Assembly: GCF_010211765.1 (NCBI RefSeq)
Contig: NZ_PDWO01000002.1
Location: 62,001 to 126,000 of the forward strand
DNA: 64,000 bases
Source: Pseudoxanthomonas kaohsiungensis
Lineage (GTDB): Bacteria > Pseudomonadota > Gammaproteobacteria > Xanthomonadales > Xanthomonadaceae
Reading direction: 5' to 3'
Shown piece after piece: positions 3,192 to 34,705 of this stretch (the first letter of the stretch is position 1; every line of letters begins with the position of its first letter). The notes below the pieces were generated by a model that had not been told where the DNA came from, searched no databases, and was given only the letters and a program-made list of their open reading frames with translations. Made by a program: the position numbers and the translations under genes.

Positions 3192-4676
3192 ATGAGCCAG
3201 CTGCACGACCTGACCGCCCTGATCCGGGCCAACACCCCGTTGATCGTGATCGAGACCCGCGACGAGGAGCGGGTGGTGGAACTGTTCCGGCAGGCGCTGA
3301 TGCAGGTCTGGCGCGCCCTGCACCGCTGGACCATCACCGAGGGCCTGCGCCGGATGGACCTGGACCGCGAGGACGCGGCCGAAGGCCCGCCCGATGCCAG
3401 CTCGGTCCTGCACGCGATCCGCCAGGCCGACCAGCGCGGCATCTACCTGCTGCTCGATTTCCATCCCTACCTGGGCTACGCCAGCCACCAGCGCCTGCTG
3501 CGCGACATCGTCCAGCGCCGCGGCTGCGAGCCGCACGTGGTCGTGCTGGTCGGGGCCAAGGTCGAGCTGCCGTCCGGGCTGGACGCCATGGCCGTGCGCT
3601 TCAGCCCGCGCCTGCCCGACGCGGCGGCGCTGCTGAAACTGGTCAGGGAGGAAGCCACCGCCTATGCGCGCGAGCATGGCGGCCGCCGGGTCGAGGCCGA
3701 GGAGGACGCGGTGCGCCAGATCGTGCGCCACCTGCAGGGCCTGGACCTGCACGACGCGCGGCGCATCGCCCGCCAGCTGATCCATGCCGACGGCGCGCTC
3801 ACCGCCTCCGACCTGCCGCAGCTGGCCAGGCTGAAGTTCGAACTGCTCAACCGCAGCGGCCACCTGCACTACGAGTACGACACCGCCGGCTTCGACGACG
3901 TGGCCGGCGCGGCGCGGCTCAAGCGCTGGATCGGCCAGCGCCGCGCCGCGTTCGGCGGCGCCCCGCCGCCCGGGCTGGATCCGCCGCGCGGCGTGCTCCT
4001 GCTGGGCGTGCAGGGCTGCGGCAAATCCCTGCTGGCCAAGGCCATTGCCGGCGGCTTCGGCGTGCCATTGCTGCGCCTGGACTTCGGCACGCTCTACGCC
4101 AAGTACCACGGCGAAACCGAGCAGAACCTGCGCGCGGCGCTGGCCTCGGCCGAGCAGCTGGCGCCGTGCGTGCTGTGGATCGACGAGATCGAGAAGGGCG
4201 TGTCGGCCGATACCGGCGACGGCGACGGCGGCGTGTCGCGGCGCGTGCTCGGCTACCTGCTGACCTGGATGGCCGAGCGCCGCGCGCCGGTGTTCCTGGT
4301 CGCCACCGCCAACCAGGTCCAGCACCTGCCGGCCGAGCTGCTGCGCAAGGGCCGCTTCGACGAGATCTTCTTCGTCGATTTGCCGAACCCGGACACGCGG
4401 GTGGAGCTGCTGCGCATCCACCTGGCCGGGCGCGGCCTGGATCCGGCCGCGTTCGCGCTGCCGGCGCTGGCCGCGGCCGCGAACGGGTTCTCCGGCGCGG
4501 AGATCGAGCAGGCGATCGTCTCGGGCCTGTACGCGGCCCATGCCGAGCAACGCGCGCTGGACACCGACCTGCTGATGGCCGAGGTCCGCGGCACGCGGCC
4601 GCTGTCGGTGCTGATGGCCGAGCAGGTCGACGCGCTGCGCGCATGGGCGGCGGAGCGGACCGTGCCGGCGGACTGA
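3192..4676 (+). CDS. Ycf46-like AAA ATPase
   Basis: A 494-aa protein. About 220 N-terminal residues are without obvious motifs. A C-terminal AAA+ module follows, with Walker A GVQGCGKS, Walker B VLWIDEIEKG, an SRH-like segment (LRKGRFDEIFFVDLP) and a sensor-2 region (NGFSGAEIEQAI). Family resemblance is to chloroplast/cyanobacterial Ycf46 and bacterial relatives of unclear function. The ATG at 3192 is chosen because conservation begins at MSQLHDL; an upstream start would add a low-quality 12-residue extension. It stands alone, convergent with a lipoprotein gene across a REP pair. Confidence 0.85.
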   Translation: MSQLHDLTALIRANTPLIVIETRDEERVVELFRQALMQVWRALHRWTITEGLRRMDLDREDAAEGPPDASSVLHAIRQADQRGIYLLLDFHPYLGYASHQRLLRDIVQRRGCEPHVVVLVGAKVELPSGLDAMAVRFSPRLPDAAALLKLVREEATAYAREHGGRRVEAEEDAVRQIVRHLQGLDLHDARRIARQLIHADGALTASDLPQLARLKFELLNRSGHLHYEYDTAGFDDVAGAARLKRWIGQRRAAFGGAPPPGLDPPRGVLLLGVQGCGKSLLAKAIAGGFGVPLLRLDFGTLYAKYHGETEQNLRAALASAEQLAPCVLWIDEIEKGVSADTGDGDGGVSRRVLGYLLTWMAERRAPVFLVATANQVQHLPAELLRKGRFDEIFFVDLPNPDTRVELLRIHLAGRGLDPAAFALPALAAAANGFSGAEIEQAIVSGLYAAHAEQRALDTDLLMAEVRGTRPLSVLMAEQVDALRAWAAERTVPAD

Positions 4677-28723: not shown

Positions 28724-28812
28724 GAGCCGGATTTGCCCGCGACCCGGCGCGCCGGCACAGGCGACGCGCTCGCGGTTCCGCGGCACGGGTCGCCAGCAAG
28801 CTGGGCTCCTAC
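28720..28812. repeat. Inverted repeat pair of the GTAGGAGCC type
   Basis: GTAGGAGCC at 28720-28728 and its inverse GGCTCCTAC at 28804-28812, with partly complementary interior (CGCGACCCG facing CGGGTCGC). This is a second REP family, unlike the AGCGGGGC type. Both arms contain a TAG that serves as the stop codon of the flanking convergent genes. Confidence 0.75.
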
Positions 28813-29216
28813 AGGGGCAAGGGCGGCGCGGCGGTGGGCTGGCCCAGCGGATCGAGCGCGATCATCACGAAGCGGCCGCGCGTGCACAGCTTGCGCTCGC
28901 CGCTGAGCAGGTTCTCGGTGATGACTTCGACCTCGACGTTCATCGAACTGCGCCCGACCTTGACGATCGTGGCGACCACCTCGACCAGGTCGCCCTTGTG
29001 GATGGGCTGGTTGAAGTCGACCTGTTCCGAGCGCGCGGTCACCACCGTGGTGCGCGCCCAGCGCGAGGCGACGATGAAGGCGGCCATGTCCATCCACGCC
29101 AGCGCCTGGCCGCCGAACAGCGTGCCCAGGTGGTTGGTGTGGTCGGGGAAGACCATGTGCAGCAGCCGCGCCTGGGTCGGGCGTGCTTCGGCGGTAGGGA
29201 CTTCGGACATCGACAT
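28809..29216 (-). CDS. Acyl-CoA thioesterase, hotdog fold (YciA-like)
   Basis: A 135-aa protein. Hotdog motifs are HTNHLGTLFGGQALAWMDMAA (the N/D-G-x-x-F-G-G helix, with catalytic Asn and Asp region) and QVDFNQPIHKGDLVEVVATI. It resembles broad-range acyl-CoA thioesterases of the YciA/BACH group. The last codons and the TAG stop lie in a REP arm. The gene follows nrdB on the same strand after 190 bp. Confidence 0.88.
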   Translation of the reverse strand: MSMSEVPTAEARPTQARLLHMVFPDHTNHLGTLFGGQALAWMDMAAFIVASRWARTTVVTARSEQVDFNQPIHKGDLVEVVATIVKVGRSSMNVEVEVITENLLSGERKLCTRGRFVMIALDPLGQPTAAPPLPL

Positions 29217-29407: not shown

Positions 29408-30424
29408 TCAGAACGCGTGGTCGAAGCCCACCTCGCCCTGCACGCCGACCTGGTAGGCCGAGACGCGTCGCTCGAAGAAGTTGGTCAGTTCCTGCACGTC
29501 CTGCAGTTCCATGAACGGCAGCGGGTTGCGTGCGTGGTAGCGGCGCGCCATGCCCAGCTTGGCGAAGTGGTTGTCGGCGCAGTGCTGCAGGTACTGGCGC
29601 ATGTCGCGGGTGGAGATGCCGGCGACGCCGCCGGACAGCACGTCCTCGGCGAATTGCAGCTCGCATTCGATCGCCTCGTCCAGCATGTCGTACACCTGCC
29701 GCTGCATGGCCTCGTCGAACAGGTCAGGCTCCTCCTCGCGCACCGTGCGCACGCATTCGAAGGCGAACTCCATGTGGCAGCTCTCGTCGCGGAACACCCA
29801 GTTGGTGCCCGATGCCAGGCCCGGCAGCAGGCCGCGCGAGCGGAAGTAGTAGACGTAGGCGAAGGCGGCGAAGAAGAACAGCCCCTCGATGCAGGCGGCG
29901 AAGCAGATCTGGTTGAGCAGGAACTGGCGGCGCTGCTCGCGGGTTTCGATCCTGCGCAGGCCGTGGATCGAATCGATCCACTTGAAGCAGAAGTCGGCCT
30001 TCTTCTTGATCGACGGGATGTTCTCCACCGCGGCGAAGGCCTTGGCCCGCTCGCCGGGGTCGGGCAGGTAGTTGTCGAGCAGGGTCAGGTAGAACTGCAC
30101 GTGCAGCGCCTCCTCGTAGAGCTGGCGCGACAGGTACATCCGCGCCTCGGGCGCGTTGAGGTGCTGGTAGAGGTTCAGCACCAGGTTGTTGGACACGATC
30201 GAATCGCCGGTGGCGAAGAACGCGACCAGGCGGTGGATCAGGTGCCGGTCGGCCGGCGTCATCTTCGCGTGCAGGTCGGAGATGTCGATCTGGAAATTGA
30301 TCTCCTCCACCGTCCAGGTGTTCTTGATCGCGTCGCGGTACATGTCGTAGAACTGCGGGTAGCGCATCGGCCGCAGGGTCAGTTCGAAGCCGGGGTCGAG
30401 CAGGAGCTGGCGATGGGTGGACAT
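29408..30424 (-). CDS. nrdB: Class I ribonucleotide reductase, beta subunit
   Basis: A 338-aa ferritin-like protein. Metal ligands align by spacing with E. coli NrdB: D74, E105, H108, E180, E214 and H217. Y112 lies four residues after H108, the place of the radical tyrosine, so this is a tyrosyl-radical type rather than the Phe-substituted Mn/Fe type. With NrdA it makes dNDPs from NDPs under oxic conditions. The start is ATG 30424, 103 bp after the small KTSC-like gene. It probably shares the riboswitch-controlled nrdA transcript. Confidence 0.95.
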   Translation of the reverse strand: MSTHRQLLLDPGFELTLRPMRYPQFYDMYRDAIKNTWTVEEINFQIDISDLHAKMTPADRHLIHRLVAFFATGDSIVSNNLVLNLYQHLNAPEARMYLSRQLYEEALHVQFYLTLLDNYLPDPGERAKAFAAVENIPSIKKKADFCFKWIDSIHGLRRIETREQRRQFLLNQICFAACIEGLFFFAAFAYVYYFRSRGLLPGLASGTNWVFRDESCHMEFAFECVRTVREEEPDLFDEAMQRQVYDMLDEAIECELQFAEDVLSGGVAGISTRDMRQYLQHCADNHFAKLGMARRYHARNPLPFMELQDVQELTNFFERRVSAYQVGVQGEVGFDHAF

Positions 30425-30478
30425 GGCGCGGGTCTCGGTGCGTTGGGAGGCGGCGCGGGTCGGCACGTCCTTGTGCCC

Positions 30479-30527: not shown

Positions 30528-30752
30528 TCAGCGCTCGAAGTCGTCGTGCGCGTACCGGCTGATGTAGGTGGCCAGGCCCCGGCCGGCCTCGGCCAGGGCT
30601 TTCATCCGCGCGACCTTTTCCGGGCCGGCGCGGCCGGTGCTGCGGTACTCGTAGGGTTCGGGTCGGTTGCGGAAGCGGACGAAGATGGAACCCGCGGTGG
30701 TCCGGTAGGCCTCCACGCCCGAGTCGCCGGAATGGTTGGCGTACCGCTTCAT
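30528..30752 (-). CDS. KTSC-like small protein between nrdA and nrdB
   Basis: A 74-aa soluble protein. The segment GSIFVRFRNRPEPYEYRS followed by KALAEAGRGLATYIS resembles the KTSC domain found in lysyl-tRNA synthetase-related and stand-alone small proteins. The ribosome site is AGGAG, 5 bp before ATG 30752, which is good for the region. The gene starts 53 bp after nrdA stops and ends 103 bp before nrdB starts, so it is probably cotranscribed with both. Function unknown; the position suggests a link to reductase control or nucleotide metabolism, but this is inference. Confidence 0.75.
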   Translation of the reverse strand: MKRYANHSGDSGVEAYRTTAGSIFVRFRNRPEPYEYRSTGRAGPEKVARMKALAEAGRGLATYISRYAHDDFER

Positions 30753-30805: not shown

Positions 30806-33247
30806 CTACTGGCAGGCCTCGCACGCCTCCGGGTTCTCCAGCGAGCAGGCCACCGCTTCGGCCGGGGTGTAGTCCGGCTTCGGCGCCGCCGACGTCGCGT
30901 GGCCGACGGTGGTCTTGGCGATCCGGGTGGCCGGCCGCGAGCGCAGGTAGTAGGTGGTCTTGATGCCCTGCTTCCAGGCGTACATGTACATCGACGACAT
31001 CGCGCCGATGTTCGGGCTTTCCATGAACAGGTTGAGCGAGGCGGACTGGTCGATGAACGCGCCGCGGCCGGCGGCCATGTCGATCAGCGCGCGCATCGGC
31101 AGCTCCCAGGCGGTGCGGTAGACCTGGCGCAGCGCTTCGGGGATCTGCGCCACGCCCTGGATCGAGCCCTCGGCCAGCTTGATCGCGTCGCGCACCTCGT
31201 CGGTCCACAGCCCGAGCTTCTTCAGCTCGGCGACCAGGTAGCGGTTGACCTGCAGGAAGTCGCCCGACAGCGTCTCGCGCTTGAACAGGTTCGACACCTG
31301 CGGCTCGACGCACTCGTAGCAGCCGGCGATCGAGGCGATGGTGGCGGTCGGGGCGATGGCGACCAGCAGCGAGTTGCGCAGGCCGTGCTCGCGGATGCGC
31401 TCGCGCAGCGCGTCCCAGCGCTCCACGTCCTCCGGCACCACGCCCCAGGCGTCGAACTGCAACTCGCCGTTCGCCGCCCGCGTATCGGCGAACGACGGAT
31501 GCCGGCCGCGCTCCTGCGCCAGTTCGACCGAGGTTTCCAGCGCATGGAAGTAGATGGTCTCTGCGATCTTCGCCGACAGCGCCCGGGCCTGCTCGCTGTC
31601 GAACGGCAGGCGCAGGCGGAAGAACACGTCCTGCAGGCCCATGCAGCCCAGCCCGACCGGCCGCCAGCGCAGGTTGCCGCGGCGCGCGGTCTCGATCGGG
31701 TAGAAGTTCAGGTCGATCACCCGGTCGAGCTGGCGCACGGCCAGGCGCACGGTCTCGGCCAGCTTGTCGAAGTCGAACGTGCCTGTGCCGGCGGGGCCGT
31801 CGTCGTCGAAGTGGTTGGCCAGGTTGATCGAGCCCAGGTTGCACACCGCGGTTTCTTCGGCCGAAGTGACCTCCAGGATCTCGGTGCACAGGTTGGACAG
31901 GTGGATGACGTTGCCGCTGCGCAGGGTCTGGTTGCTGGCGCGGTTGCACTTGTCCTTGAAGGTCATCCAGCCGTTGCCGGTCTCGGCCAGGGTGCGCATC
32001 ATCCGCGCATAGAGCTTGCGTGCCGGCAACGTCCTGACCGCCTTGCCCTGCGCCTCGGCCTGCAGGTAGGCCTGCGCGAAGTCCTCGCCGTACAGGTCGA
32101 CCAGCTCCGGCACCACGCGCGGGTCGAACAGCGACCATTCCTGGTCGGCCTCCACCCGCTGCATGAACAGGTCAGGCACCCAGTTGGCCAGGTTGAGGTT
32201 GTGGGTGCGCCGGGCCTCGTCGCCGGTGTTGTCGCGCAGTTCGAGGAAATCCTCGATGTCCGCGTGCCAGGTTTCCAGGTAGACGCAGGCGGCGCCCTTG
32301 CGCTTGCCGCCCTGGTTGACCGCCGCGACCGAGGAGTCGAGCGTCTTCAGCCACGGCACGATGCCGTTGCTGTGGCCGTTGGTGGACCGGATCAGCGAGC
32401 CGCGCGAGCGCACCCGGCTGTAGCTCACGCCGATGCCGCCGCTGAACTTGGACAGCTGGGCGATGTCGCCGTACCTGGCATAGATCGATTCCAGCGTGTC
32501 CTGCGGCGAATCGAGCAGGAAGCACGAGGACAGCTGCTCGTGGGTGGTGCCGCTGTTGAACAGCGTCGGCGAGGACGGCAGGTAGTCGAGCTGGCCCATG
32601 CGCCGGTACAGCGCCAGCGCCTCGGGCACGTCCTCGCTCAGCGCGCAGGCGATGCGCAGGAAGAACTGCTGCGGGGTCTCGATCACCTTGCGCGTGTGCG
32701 GGTGGCGCAGCAGGTAGCGGTCGTACAGCGTGCGCAGGCCGAAGTAGTCGAAGCCCAGGTCCAGGGAGGGGTCGAGCGCGTCGTTGAGCTTGCGCGCATT
32801 GGTCTGGACGAAGCTCAGCAGCCGATCGTTGATCAGGCCCACCTCGTGGCCACGGGCCACCGACTGTGAGAACGCATGGATCTCCTGGCCGGCCACCTCC
32901 TTGGCGATGTAGCCGGCCAGCAGGCGCGCGGCCAGGCGGCTGTATTCGGGCTCCTCGCCGGTGAGCAGCGCGGCGGTGCGGATCGACAGTTCGTCCAGCT
33001 CGCGGGTGCTGGCGCCGTCGTACAGGCCGGAGATGGTGCGGGTGGCCACGCGCATCGGATCGACCGCGTGCAGCCCCTCGCAGCTGCGCTGCACCGCGCG
33101 CACGATCTTGTTCAGGTCCACCGGCTCGCGGCTGCCGTTGCGCTTGGTCACGCTCATCGCGGTGGCCGTCGGCGGCGGGGTCAGCTGGAATGCGTCGTCC
33201 GGGGACGCGGCGGCGGCGCCGGCGACGGCGGTATCGGTCTGGCTCAC
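30806..33247 (-). CDS. nrdA: Class I ribonucleotide reductase, alpha subunit
   Basis: An 813-aa catalytic subunit. An N-terminal ATP-cone (VTKRNGSREPVDLNKIVRAV, residues 33-52) implies dATP/ATP overall control. The active site is C242 (SSCFLLD), N452/C454/E456 (SNLCTEI) and C469. The C-terminal CEAC (C809, C812) is the redox-relay pair recharged by thioredoxin or glutaredoxin. The start is GTG 33247 with GGAG 5 bp upstream. The long leader holds a cobalamin riboswitch and a terminator-like hairpin, so expression should fall when adenosylcobalamin is abundant. Confidence 0.95.
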   Translation of the reverse strand: MSQTDTAVAGAAAASPDDAFQLTPPPTATAMSVTKRNGSREPVDLNKIVRAVQRSCEGLHAVDPMRVATRTISGLYDGASTRELDELSIRTAALLTGEEPEYSRLAARLLAGYIAKEVAGQEIHAFSQSVARGHEVGLINDRLLSFVQTNARKLNDALDPSLDLGFDYFGLRTLYDRYLLRHPHTRKVIETPQQFFLRIACALSEDVPEALALYRRMGQLDYLPSSPTLFNSGTTHEQLSSCFLLDSPQDTLESIYARYGDIAQLSKFSGGIGVSYSRVRSRGSLIRSTNGHSNGIVPWLKTLDSSVAAVNQGGKRKGAACVYLETWHADIEDFLELRDNTGDEARRTHNLNLANWVPDLFMQRVEADQEWSLFDPRVVPELVDLYGEDFAQAYLQAEAQGKAVRTLPARKLYARMMRTLAETGNGWMTFKDKCNRASNQTLRSGNVIHLSNLCTEILEVTSAEETAVCNLGSINLANHFDDDGPAGTGTFDFDKLAETVRLAVRQLDRVIDLNFYPIETARRGNLRWRPVGLGCMGLQDVFFRLRLPFDSEQARALSAKIAETIYFHALETSVELAQERGRHPSFADTRAANGELQFDAWGVVPEDVERWDALRERIREHGLRNSLLVAIAPTATIASIAGCYECVEPQVSNLFKRETLSGDFLQVNRYLVAELKKLGLWTDEVRDAIKLAEGSIQGVAQIPEALRQVYRTAWELPMRALIDMAAGRGAFIDQSASLNLFMESPNIGAMSSMYMYAWKQGIKTTYYLRSRPATRIAKTTVGHATSAAPKPDYTPAEAVACSLENPEACEACQ

Positions 33248-33326
33248 GGTTGCTCCTCCATGCGTGGCGCACGCGGCGGCCCCATCCCTCGCGGGGCAGC
33301 GGATGGCCGGTGGATCCGGAGGATGG

Positions 33327-33387
33327 AAAAGCGGCGTCGCAGGGGGCGAGAACCGGCAGGCGGACTGCGGACTGGCCCTGCGTCGCC
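33327..33387 (-). terminator. Terminator-like hairpin in the nrdA leader (expression platform candidate)
   Basis: On the minus strand GGCGACGCAGGG (33387-33376) pairs with CCCTGCGACGCC (33344-33333) with one mismatch, followed by GC and a TTTT run (33330-33327). It lies about 80 bp before the nrdA start and about 50 bp after the riboswitch core. It would allow premature termination when the aptamer is occupied. The loop is about 30 nt. Confidence 0.55.
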
Positions 33388-33439
33388 AGCCATCTCCCCC
33401 CGGAGATTCCGCGGCCGGCACCGCGCGGTGTGCATCGCG

Positions 33440-33645
33440 CGGCTGTCGGCAGGTCTTCGGACTCATGGGCGCGGAAGGCCGGGGCCGTCCTCCTACTTCC
33501 GCCGCTTCCCGGGGCCAGGCGCCCCAGTGCTCGATGGCGGGTTCGTTCCCAATTACCGCTGCGGGGCAGTGCCGGACTGGCGCGAGGCGCGTCACCGGCT
33601 TCCCTTTTGATCCGGTGGCGAGCAGGCCACCGGAACCGACAACCA
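33440..33645 (-). ncRNA. Adenosylcobalamin riboswitch upstream of nrdA
   Basis: Read on the minus strand, the conserved elements of the B12 riboswitch occur in order: AAAAGGGAAGCCGGTG, then GCACTGCCCCGCAGCGGTAA (close to the family GCTGCCCCCGCAACTGTAA), a CACTGG/GGGAA helix region, and the 3' box GAGTCCGAAGACCTGCC followed by GACAG. A promoter lies just upstream. The downstream gene is nrdA, a B12-independent enzyme, so the switch is expected to turn the operon off when cofactor is present. Confidence 0.9.
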
Positions 33646-33646
33646 C

Positions 33647-33675
33647 AAGATATGGGGGCGGCACCGGCCCGTCAA
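33647..33675 (-). promoter_or_regulatory. Sigma-70 promoter for the riboswitch-nrdA transcript
   Basis: On the minus strand TTGACG (33675-33670) and TATCTT (33652-33647) are separated by exactly 17 bp. Transcription would begin around 33640, at the first bases of the riboswitch, which supports both calls. Confidence 0.65.
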
Positions 33676-33790
33676 TACGCGATGTGGTGTCCGCCTCGCT
33701 TGACATCCGGCGCTCGCACCCGCAGCGGCAGCGGTCAACCCGGGCCTGCCCGGCGCGTTTCCCAGCGGGTCCCGAACCGGAGGTGGAGCC

Positions 33791-34705
33791 ATGCCGACCG
33801 TCCCTGCGGGCCTTTCCGCCGCCCTGCTCGCCCTGGCGCTGGTCGCCGGCGATGCGTCCGCCCAGGGCTGGCGGGAGCGCCTGCAACAGGCGCGCCAGGC
33901 CTCCCGCGAACCGGCCACGCAGCCGCCCCAGCTTCCCGCCGGCTCCCGCGCATTGGTGGACATCGCCTACGGCGACGATGCCCGGCAACGGTTCGACGCC
34001 TACCTGCCGGCCCGGCCGGTGCCCGGTGCCCCGGTGATCCTGTTCGTGCACGGTGGCGGCTGGGCCAACGGCAACAAGGACAATCCTGGCGTGGTCGAGG
34101 GCAAGGCCGGGCAGTGGCTGCCGAAGGGCAGCGTGCTGGTGTCGACCAACTACCGCCTGCGCCCGGCCACCGCACCGCTGGACCAGGCCCGCGACGTGGC
34201 GCGCGCGCTGGCGCAGGTGCAGCGCATGGCCCCGGACTGGGGTGCCGATCCGGCGCGCGTGGTGCTGATGGGGCACTCGGCCGGCGCCCACCTGGCCGCA
34301 CTGGTGGGCGCCTCGCCGGTGCTCTGGCGCGAGGCCGGCGCGCGGCCGCCGCTGGGGGTGGTGTCGCTCGACAGCGGCGCGCTCGACGTGCCGGACATGA
34401 TGCGGCGGCCGCGCCTGCCGCCGCTGTACGACCGCGCGTTCGGCGCCGATCCGGACGATTGGGTCGCCGCATCGCCGCAGCACCAGCTCACCGCGCAAGC
34501 GGTGCCGATGCTGCTGGTCTGCTCGACCCGTCGCAACGACGCCTGCCCCCAGGCGCGCGCCTTCCAGGCCAAGGCCGCGACGCTGGGCGTCGCGATGGAA
34601 GTGCTGCCGCAGGCGCTGTCGCACCGCCAGCTCAACCGCGAGCTCGGCCTGCCCTCGGACTACACCGCCGCGGTGGACCGCTGGCTGGATGCGCTGGCGC
34701 GCTGA
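33791..34705 (+). CDS. Secreted alpha/beta-hydrolase (carboxylesterase type)
   Basis: A 304-aa protein with a signal peptide (about residues 1-24, ending DASAQG). It has the esterase/lipase pattern HGGGW (oxyanion hole) and GHSAG (nucleophile Ser); a C-terminal Asp and the His in LSHRQLN may complete the triad. It resembles the kynurenine-formamidase/BD-FAE-like esterase group. It is divergent from the riboswitch-nrdA promoter, about 115 bp away. Substrate unknown. Confidence 0.82.
   Translation: MPTVPAGLSAALLALALVAGDASAQGWRERLQQARQASREPATQPPQLPAGSRALVDIAYGDDARQRFDAYLPARPVPGAPVILFVHGGGWANGNKDNPGVVEGKAGQWLPKGSVLVSTNYRLRPATAPLDQARDVARALAQVQRMAPDWGADPARVVLMGHSAGAHLAALVGASPVLWREAGARPPLGVVSLDSGALDVPDMMRRPRLPPLYDRAFGADPDDWVAASPQHQLTAQAVPMLLVCSTRRNDACPQARAFQAKAATLGVAMEVLPQALSHRQLNRELGLPSDYTAAVDRWLDALAR

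Follow-up and report, generated by a model that had tools for sequence, protein, structure and literature searches.

Introduction

Control of B12-independent ribonucleotide reductases (RNRs) by cobalamin (B12) riboswitches is a known principle. Here we describe a new member with unusually clear evolutionary traces, the leader of the class I nrdA-nrdB operon on the minus strand of a 64,000-nucleotide (nt) stretch of Pseudoxanthomonas kaohsiungensis DNA (RefSeq GCF_010211765.1, contig NZ_PDWO01000002.1, positions 62,001 to 126,000; hereafter the window, with coordinates counted from its first letter). A cobalamin riboswitch of Streptomyces nrdABS was reportedly presented by Borovok et al. in 2006, under a title that states control of transcription. 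That case is alike in being a class Ia RNR operon under a B12 riboswitch, and differs, as judged from the title and not from its sequence, in that transcription is named as the controlled step, whereas in the window's leader no terminator was found and the Shine-Dalgarno sequence (SD) is the apparent target.

Further parallels come from sources cited here for excerpts of their text. Streptomyces coelicolor has class I and class II RNR operons as well as NrdR (PMC9110341), and isozymes of B12-dependent enzymes form a category of the cobalamin regulon (PMC3766115). For nrdDG in delta-proteobacteria, B12 has been proposed to repress a B12-independent RNR where NrdJ is present (PMC545781), an arrangement similar to the one proposed here except that nrdDG is a class III system and the window's operon a class I one. 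In the Escherichia coli btuB adenosylcobalamin riboswitch, P13 forms part of a pseudoknot, and whether the SD is accessible depends on an additional helix (PMC11162775); the present leader is predicted to share both features, but the E. coli element controls B12 uptake, and the window's leader has a platform of about 180 nt with its anti-SD strand about 70 nt upstream of the SD. Finally, an NrdR operator is a pair of palindromic boxes, spaced by about three helical turns and able to overlap the promoter (PMC9110341). The window has a comparable box pair, here joined with a riboswitch, the transcription of which would start where box 2 ends. Additional background is found in PMC8123684, PMC6461909, PMC2211319, PMC5962746, PMC3848588 and PMC2864759. 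A literature search of titles and abstract openings, with subscription journals mostly outside it, returned no riboswitch before nrdA in Xanthomonadaceae.

Results

A cobalamin riboswitch ahead of a class I RNR operon

Comparison with Rfam returned a full-length match to the Cobalamin family RF00174 on the minus strand at 33655-33431 (113.1 bits, E 1.5e-27; gathering threshold 31.5 bits; model positions 1-189 of 189), the single match above threshold within the window, in agreement with an earlier sequence-only reading of this DNA that had recognised a B12 riboswitch core here. The ligand is probably adenosylcobalamin. The sigma-70 promoter that the same reading had placed before the riboswitch was also recovered, as TTGACG-17-TATCTT at 33675-33647, matching 9 of 12 consensus positions (region shuffles: mean 0.0, standard deviation 0.2) and recurring in the same form in 73 of 82 riboswitch-bearing leaders. 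Because the first bases of the RF00174 model sit in the promoter, and judging from the -10 position, the transcript probably starts near 33640, and therefore the P1 5' strand would enter the transcript only with its last bases (GUCGG). Downstream, nrdA and nrdB lie side by side with Pfam matches over cut-off (Ribonuc_red_lgC 665.6 bits and ATP-cone 48.2 bits for NrdA, Ribonuc_red_sm 264.2 bits for NrdB), confirming the class I operon that had been read behind the riboswitch; TIGR02506 matches at 724.8 bits (cut-off 341.05), and the finer models NF005544, NF005550 and NF007186 score under their cut-offs. The elements of the locus, all on the minus strand, are as follows.

33675..33690 (-), NrdR-like box 1, ACACCACATCGCGTAT, sharing one base with the -35 hexamer
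33647..33675 (-), sigma-70 type promoter, from a sequence scan
33643..33658 (-), NrdR-like box 2, CCCCCATATCTTGTGG, overlapping the -10 hexamer
33431..33655 (-), cobalamin riboswitch aptamer, RF00174, from the Rfam match
33420..33443 (-), P13-type hairpin GCCGCGCG/CGCGCGGU with GCAC in its loop, from the leader alignment
33386..33418 (-), P14-type hairpin CCGGCC[UCUCC..GGAGA]GGCUGG, with pairs changed on both sides
33333..33387 (-), possible stem GGCGACGCAGGG (33387-33376) / CCCUGCGACGCC (33344-33333), read from the sequence and the leader alignment
33323..33332 (-), anti-Shine-Dalgarno strand GCUUUUCCAU, from its duplex with the SD region and the comparison of own with swapped SDs
33252..33261 (-), nrdA Shine-Dalgarno region AUGGAGGAGC, from the sequence
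30806..33247 (-), nrdA, class I RNR large subunit with ATP-cone, 813 aa, GTG start, from Pfam
29408..30466 (-), nrdB, class I small subunit, 352 aa, from Pfam

The 3.76 Mb assembly (85 contigs) contains two RF00174 matches, one in the nrdA leader and one before a TonB-dependent receptor gene, which we read as btuB. Its two PF02867 genes are nrdA and a class II nrdJ (C8:73156-75309, 718 aa; TIGR02504 581.8 bits, cut-off 399.95), as had been predicted from the window, so that the B12-independent enzyme has a B12-dependent counterpart in the same genome. The genome also encodes NrdR (TIGR00244 197.2 bits, cut-off 124.65), and two NrdR-like boxes, separated by 32 bp or about three turns, lie on the nrdA promoter. 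Scored against an NrdR consensus, boxes 1 and 2 match at 10 and 11 of 16 positions, respectively; among 73 promoter-bearing leaders, scores of at least 10 occur for box 1 in 64 and for box 2 in 72 (shuffles about 3% and 1%), and the spacing is 32 bp in 57 and 31 bp in eight (65 of 73 combined). By the same consensus, a pair 31 bp apart also precedes nrdJ, with a summed score of 21 that was equalled in 1 of 300 shuffles. NrdR may bind at the nrdA promoter.

Retention of the riboswitch follows nrdJ

Within a family sample of 119 genomes, 118 have at least one RF00174 match and 103 have nrdJ. Upstream regions were taken for 95 class I nrdA genes, representing 93 relatives, and all were run against Rfam; 81 carry RF00174, 79 of them at 66.7-117.5 bits and two lower (50.4 and 52.9), while 14 do not. 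With the window's genome included, 79 of 94 genomes have both nrdJ and the riboswitch, 11 have neither, three have the riboswitch with no nrdJ found (G007, G024 and G030, at 72, 83 and 87% completeness), and one, G034, has nrdJ without the riboswitch. Restricting the comparison to the 89 genomes at least 90% complete leaves 77 with both, 11 with neither, none with the riboswitch alone and one with nrdJ alone (Fisher p 3.3e-13, ignoring kinship). G034 is itself an odd genome, with a long rpoB branch and an unusual base make-up, and its class I operon is a different one, of the class Ia type of E. coli (NF006578 1471.1 bits, NF006576 670.5 bits). On an rpoB tree of 60 chosen genomes, which include all 11 nrdJ-less ones at least 90% complete and for which 26 of 57 inner branches are well supported, nrdJ changes at least four times, read as losses, and the aptamer moves with nrdJ in independent pairs (4.0 of 4 on average). 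This co-loss favours an OFF switch, as an ON switch would not need nrdJ, and together with the co-occurrence it lends support to the suggestion of the sequence-only reading that B12 supply may switch the cell between nrdA and nrdJ.

Class I genes were counted among the PF02867 matches listed, which include one in 94 of the 119 genomes; 15 of the 25 genomes with no class I match listed (for example G002, G025 and G033) have a single PF02867 match, class-II-scoring, and on the matches listed would depend on B12 for DNA synthesis unless a class III enzyme is present. In 10 of the 119 genomes (G020, G027, G031, G036, G047, G056, G059, G065, G076 and G085), nrdJ carries an in-frame insert of about 340-375 codons near residue 327, probably an intein, giving open frames of 1100-1191 aa.

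A structured expression platform

As read from sequence and alignment, the region downstream of the aptamer is a structured platform of about 180 nt opened by a conserved P13-type hairpin (33443-33420). This is the hairpin that had been called terminator-like, a description that does not hold: it lacks a U tract, being followed instead by the second conserved hairpin, P14, and a scan of 33100-33900 found no terminators, which speaks against an intrinsic (rho-independent) attenuator there. The GCAC of the P13 loop is complementary to GUG(C) in aptamer loop L5, the expected kissing loop. All 52 P13 loops that could be parsed contain GCAC (30 of 82 leaders were unparsed), and GUG stands at the L5 site in at least 45 of 52, a count helped by a search pattern that favoured GUG; the bases of both loops hardly vary and their covariation is uninformative. 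P13 and P14, paired in 99.1% of cells, include four pairs changed on both sides, all of them in P14, with 16 such cells compared with 3.9 in shuffles.

R1, a covariance model of P13-P14 built from 37 intact leaders, finds at E 0.01 a single match in the window's genome, at nrdA. It is present in 16 of 17 genomes searched within the genus, and in 3 of 16 genomes from other families of the order, in these three each time before nrdA. A platform common to the nrdA and TonB-receptor riboswitches is unsupported, as R1 finds only nrdA in the window's genome at E 0.01 and returned nothing below E 0.1 in L002 or L006.

Further downstream, GCUUUUCCAU (33332-33323) can pair with AUGGAGGAGC (33261-33252), which contains the SD. 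A usable start was available for 77 of 82 riboswitch leaders (L055, L083, L101, L107 and L111 excluded), and in the 55 that entered the test the anti-SD pairs with its own SD at -14.94 kcal/mol and with the SDs of others at -13.06 kcal/mol, a preference that 0 of 20,000 permutations reached; when each genus was represented by a single leader (n = 28), 27 of 20,000 did. As no terminator was found and the anti-SD covaries with the SD, translational control by SD sequestration is favoured, though not proven. The leader also contains a 63-aa open reading frame (ORF) at 33435-33244, a leader-peptide candidate from the ORF list.

Leaders without a recognisable aptamer

A set of 80 named nrdA loci, overlapping the family sample, was scored for the aptamer by a sequence pattern that had 80 hits in the sample and departed from Rfam there by 1 miss and 1 false positive. 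Two of 48 pattern hits among the named loci (L151, L194) were unconfirmed by Rfam and reclassed as aptamer-less, giving 46 of 80 loci with the aptamer and 34 without; Rfam found it in 4 of 4 tested of the former and 0 of 22 tested of the latter. nrdJ was searched in 79 of the 80 genomes (L183 excluded) and is present in 45 of 46 with the aptamer, the exception being a 2.5 Mb metagenome assembly (L188), and missing from 31 of 33 without it. The two exceptions here, L139 and L144, retain nrdJ with no recognisable aptamer, as expected if the switch breaks before nrdJ is lost. L144 is Stenotrophomonas sp. ISL-67, with no recognisable aptamer before nrdA; its nrdJ adjoins relatives of the genes flanking nrdJ in the window's genome (nrdJ and nrdA contigs both 250,956 in length) and looks native, the alternative being regain by recombination. 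L139, a record titled Bacillus subtilis SK7B5, has nrdJ together with an nrdA that resembles those of Stenotrophomonas and shares 87% identity with the window's; the record probably bears a wrong label or is a mixture.

Aptamer-less leaders preserve other parts of the cassette. Using a loose pattern scored without a shuffle control, the promoter of the nrdA form is kept in 13 of 13 such leaders from 11 nrdJ-less sample genomes and in 28 of 31 named nrdJ-less loci. GTCGG of the P1 5' strand lies no more than 16 nt beyond the promoter in 8 of the 13 and in 24 of the 31, and in 61 of 73 riboswitch-bearing leaders. The distance from promoter to start is 169-365 in the 13, compared with a median of 403 (157-582) in riboswitch-bearing leaders. 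Of 47 aptamer-less sources, 19 have an R1 match in the leader with E no higher than 0.01; they represent 17 distinct genomes and include the nrdJ-bearing L139 and L144; at this level it is found in 0 of 12 loci of the S. maltophilia group (L152-L154, L156-L158, L160, L161, L163-L166) and is absent from L038, L040, L074, L113, L119, L125 and L126. Aptamer remnants are visible by eye in L167 and L171, where the Rfam search finds none. Two genomes, G071 and G098 (L038, L040, L119, L125), have two class I operons each, type A and type B, and no nrdJ, and the leaders of both operons have a promoter of the same form and no RF00174 match; G029, of the same genus (g29), stands apart from both on the rpoB tree.

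Proposed replacement of the enzyme under the leader

Some genomes with the same leader have a NrdA only about 30% identical to the window's. In G060, of the same genus, a type B operon of nrdA, nrdB and an RNR-associated flavodoxin is flanked by the riboswitch leader (RF00174 96.2 bits in L124, with an R1 match) and by a thioesterase 87% identical to the window's, and NrdA type changes at least seven times on the 60-genome rpoB tree. In L277 the RNR-associated flavodoxin (3425-3907, minus strand; TIGR01754 182.2 bits, cut-off 163.8) follows type B nrdB and may reflect a different metal cofactor supply for that operon. The remaining features of the window's operon are:

30528..30752 (-), small ORF (74 aa) separating nrdA from nrdB, from the ORF list, unmatched in NCBIfam and Pfam at E 0.001
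28809..29216 (-), hotdog thioesterase (4HBT, YciA-like), downstream operon flank, from a family match

Discussion

Our preferred reading is a cobalamin OFF riboswitch on class I nrdA-nrdB with a translational step, which on the sequence evidence we place at a probability of roughly 0.6; that B12 shuts the operon off by either route, translation or termination, is highly probable. In the proposed mechanism, B12 would fold the aptamer and its L5 loop would dock on the P13 loop, upon which the pyrimidine-rich upstream strand would hide the nrdA SD, little NrdAB would be made and the B12-dependent NrdJ would do the work, while nrdA would be translated when B12 is absent. With the tandem NrdR-like operator, the operon would respond to deoxynucleotide (dNTP) supply through its DNA and to B12 supply through its RNA.

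Several observations weigh against this reading. The anti-SD test omitted 22 of 77 leaders that had no anchor, and when SD/anti-SD pairing was scanned without an anchor across ten windows, the excess was significant at -90 to -60 alone (p 0.0013), with an opposite significant effect at -60 to -30 (p 0.00045). Weakening of the anti-SD in nrdJ-less leaders, where several start codons are misplaced, is not significant (p 0.18). Shuffles of the leader reach minimum-energy folds just as stable as its own (z 0.01, 0.36), and its own lacks the proposed SD/anti-SD helix. Six of eight P13 pairs are invariant and uninformative either way. Finally, a sign test on the four independent pairs gives p 0.125 and is unable to reach 0.05.

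The same B12 OFF switch might act mainly by premature transcription termination, intrinsic at P13 or Rho-dependent in the leader, and not by hiding the SD. The title of the Streptomyces nrdABS paper, taken alone, speaks of transcription control. In the btuB riboswitch of E. coli, repression of translation is linked with Rho (excerpts of PMC11162775), and some Rho coupling may operate here as well. Against this explanation stand the lack of a terminator-like site in the scan, with P13 followed by a conserved hairpin and not a U tract, and the covariation of SD and anti-SD; we regard it as rather unlikely. Two further explanations would dispense with OFF control. If the aptamer were a relic regulating little, with nrdA effectively constitutive, the existence of L139 and L144 would fit, since they show loss of control to be tolerated; yet 79 of 81 riboswitch loci keep scores of 66.7-117.5 bits and retention of the aptamer follows nrdJ, leaving the relic very improbable. 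Nor is the direction of the switch readable from sequence alone, and B12 might in principle turn nrdA on, but such a switch needs no nrdJ, and 0 of 11 nrdJ-less genomes at least 90% complete keep the aptamer, while their leaders retain the promoter and in part the platform; we find this hardly credible.

On a bolder reading, the aptamer would render nrdJ conditionally indispensable: with B12 turning off the only alternative reductase, a lineage could not lose nrdJ before its switch had broken. We consider it about an even bet that this is so, that intermediates with nrdJ and a broken aptamer occur, and that the leader acts as a portable control cassette. Lineages would then pass through a stage with nrdJ and a broken aptamer, leaving a fossil leader with the promoter, at first the platform, and no sensor, and under an intact leader the whole nrdAB operon would be replaced in place by one whose NrdA is about 30% identical. 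Intact leaders offer a long, partly covarying expression platform outside Rfam's aptamer model, and broken ones make the order of loss, sensor first and enzyme second, testable. Overall, the family would provide a natural experiment for the approximately 20-year-old rule that B12 switches off B12-independent isozymes where a B12-dependent twin exists.

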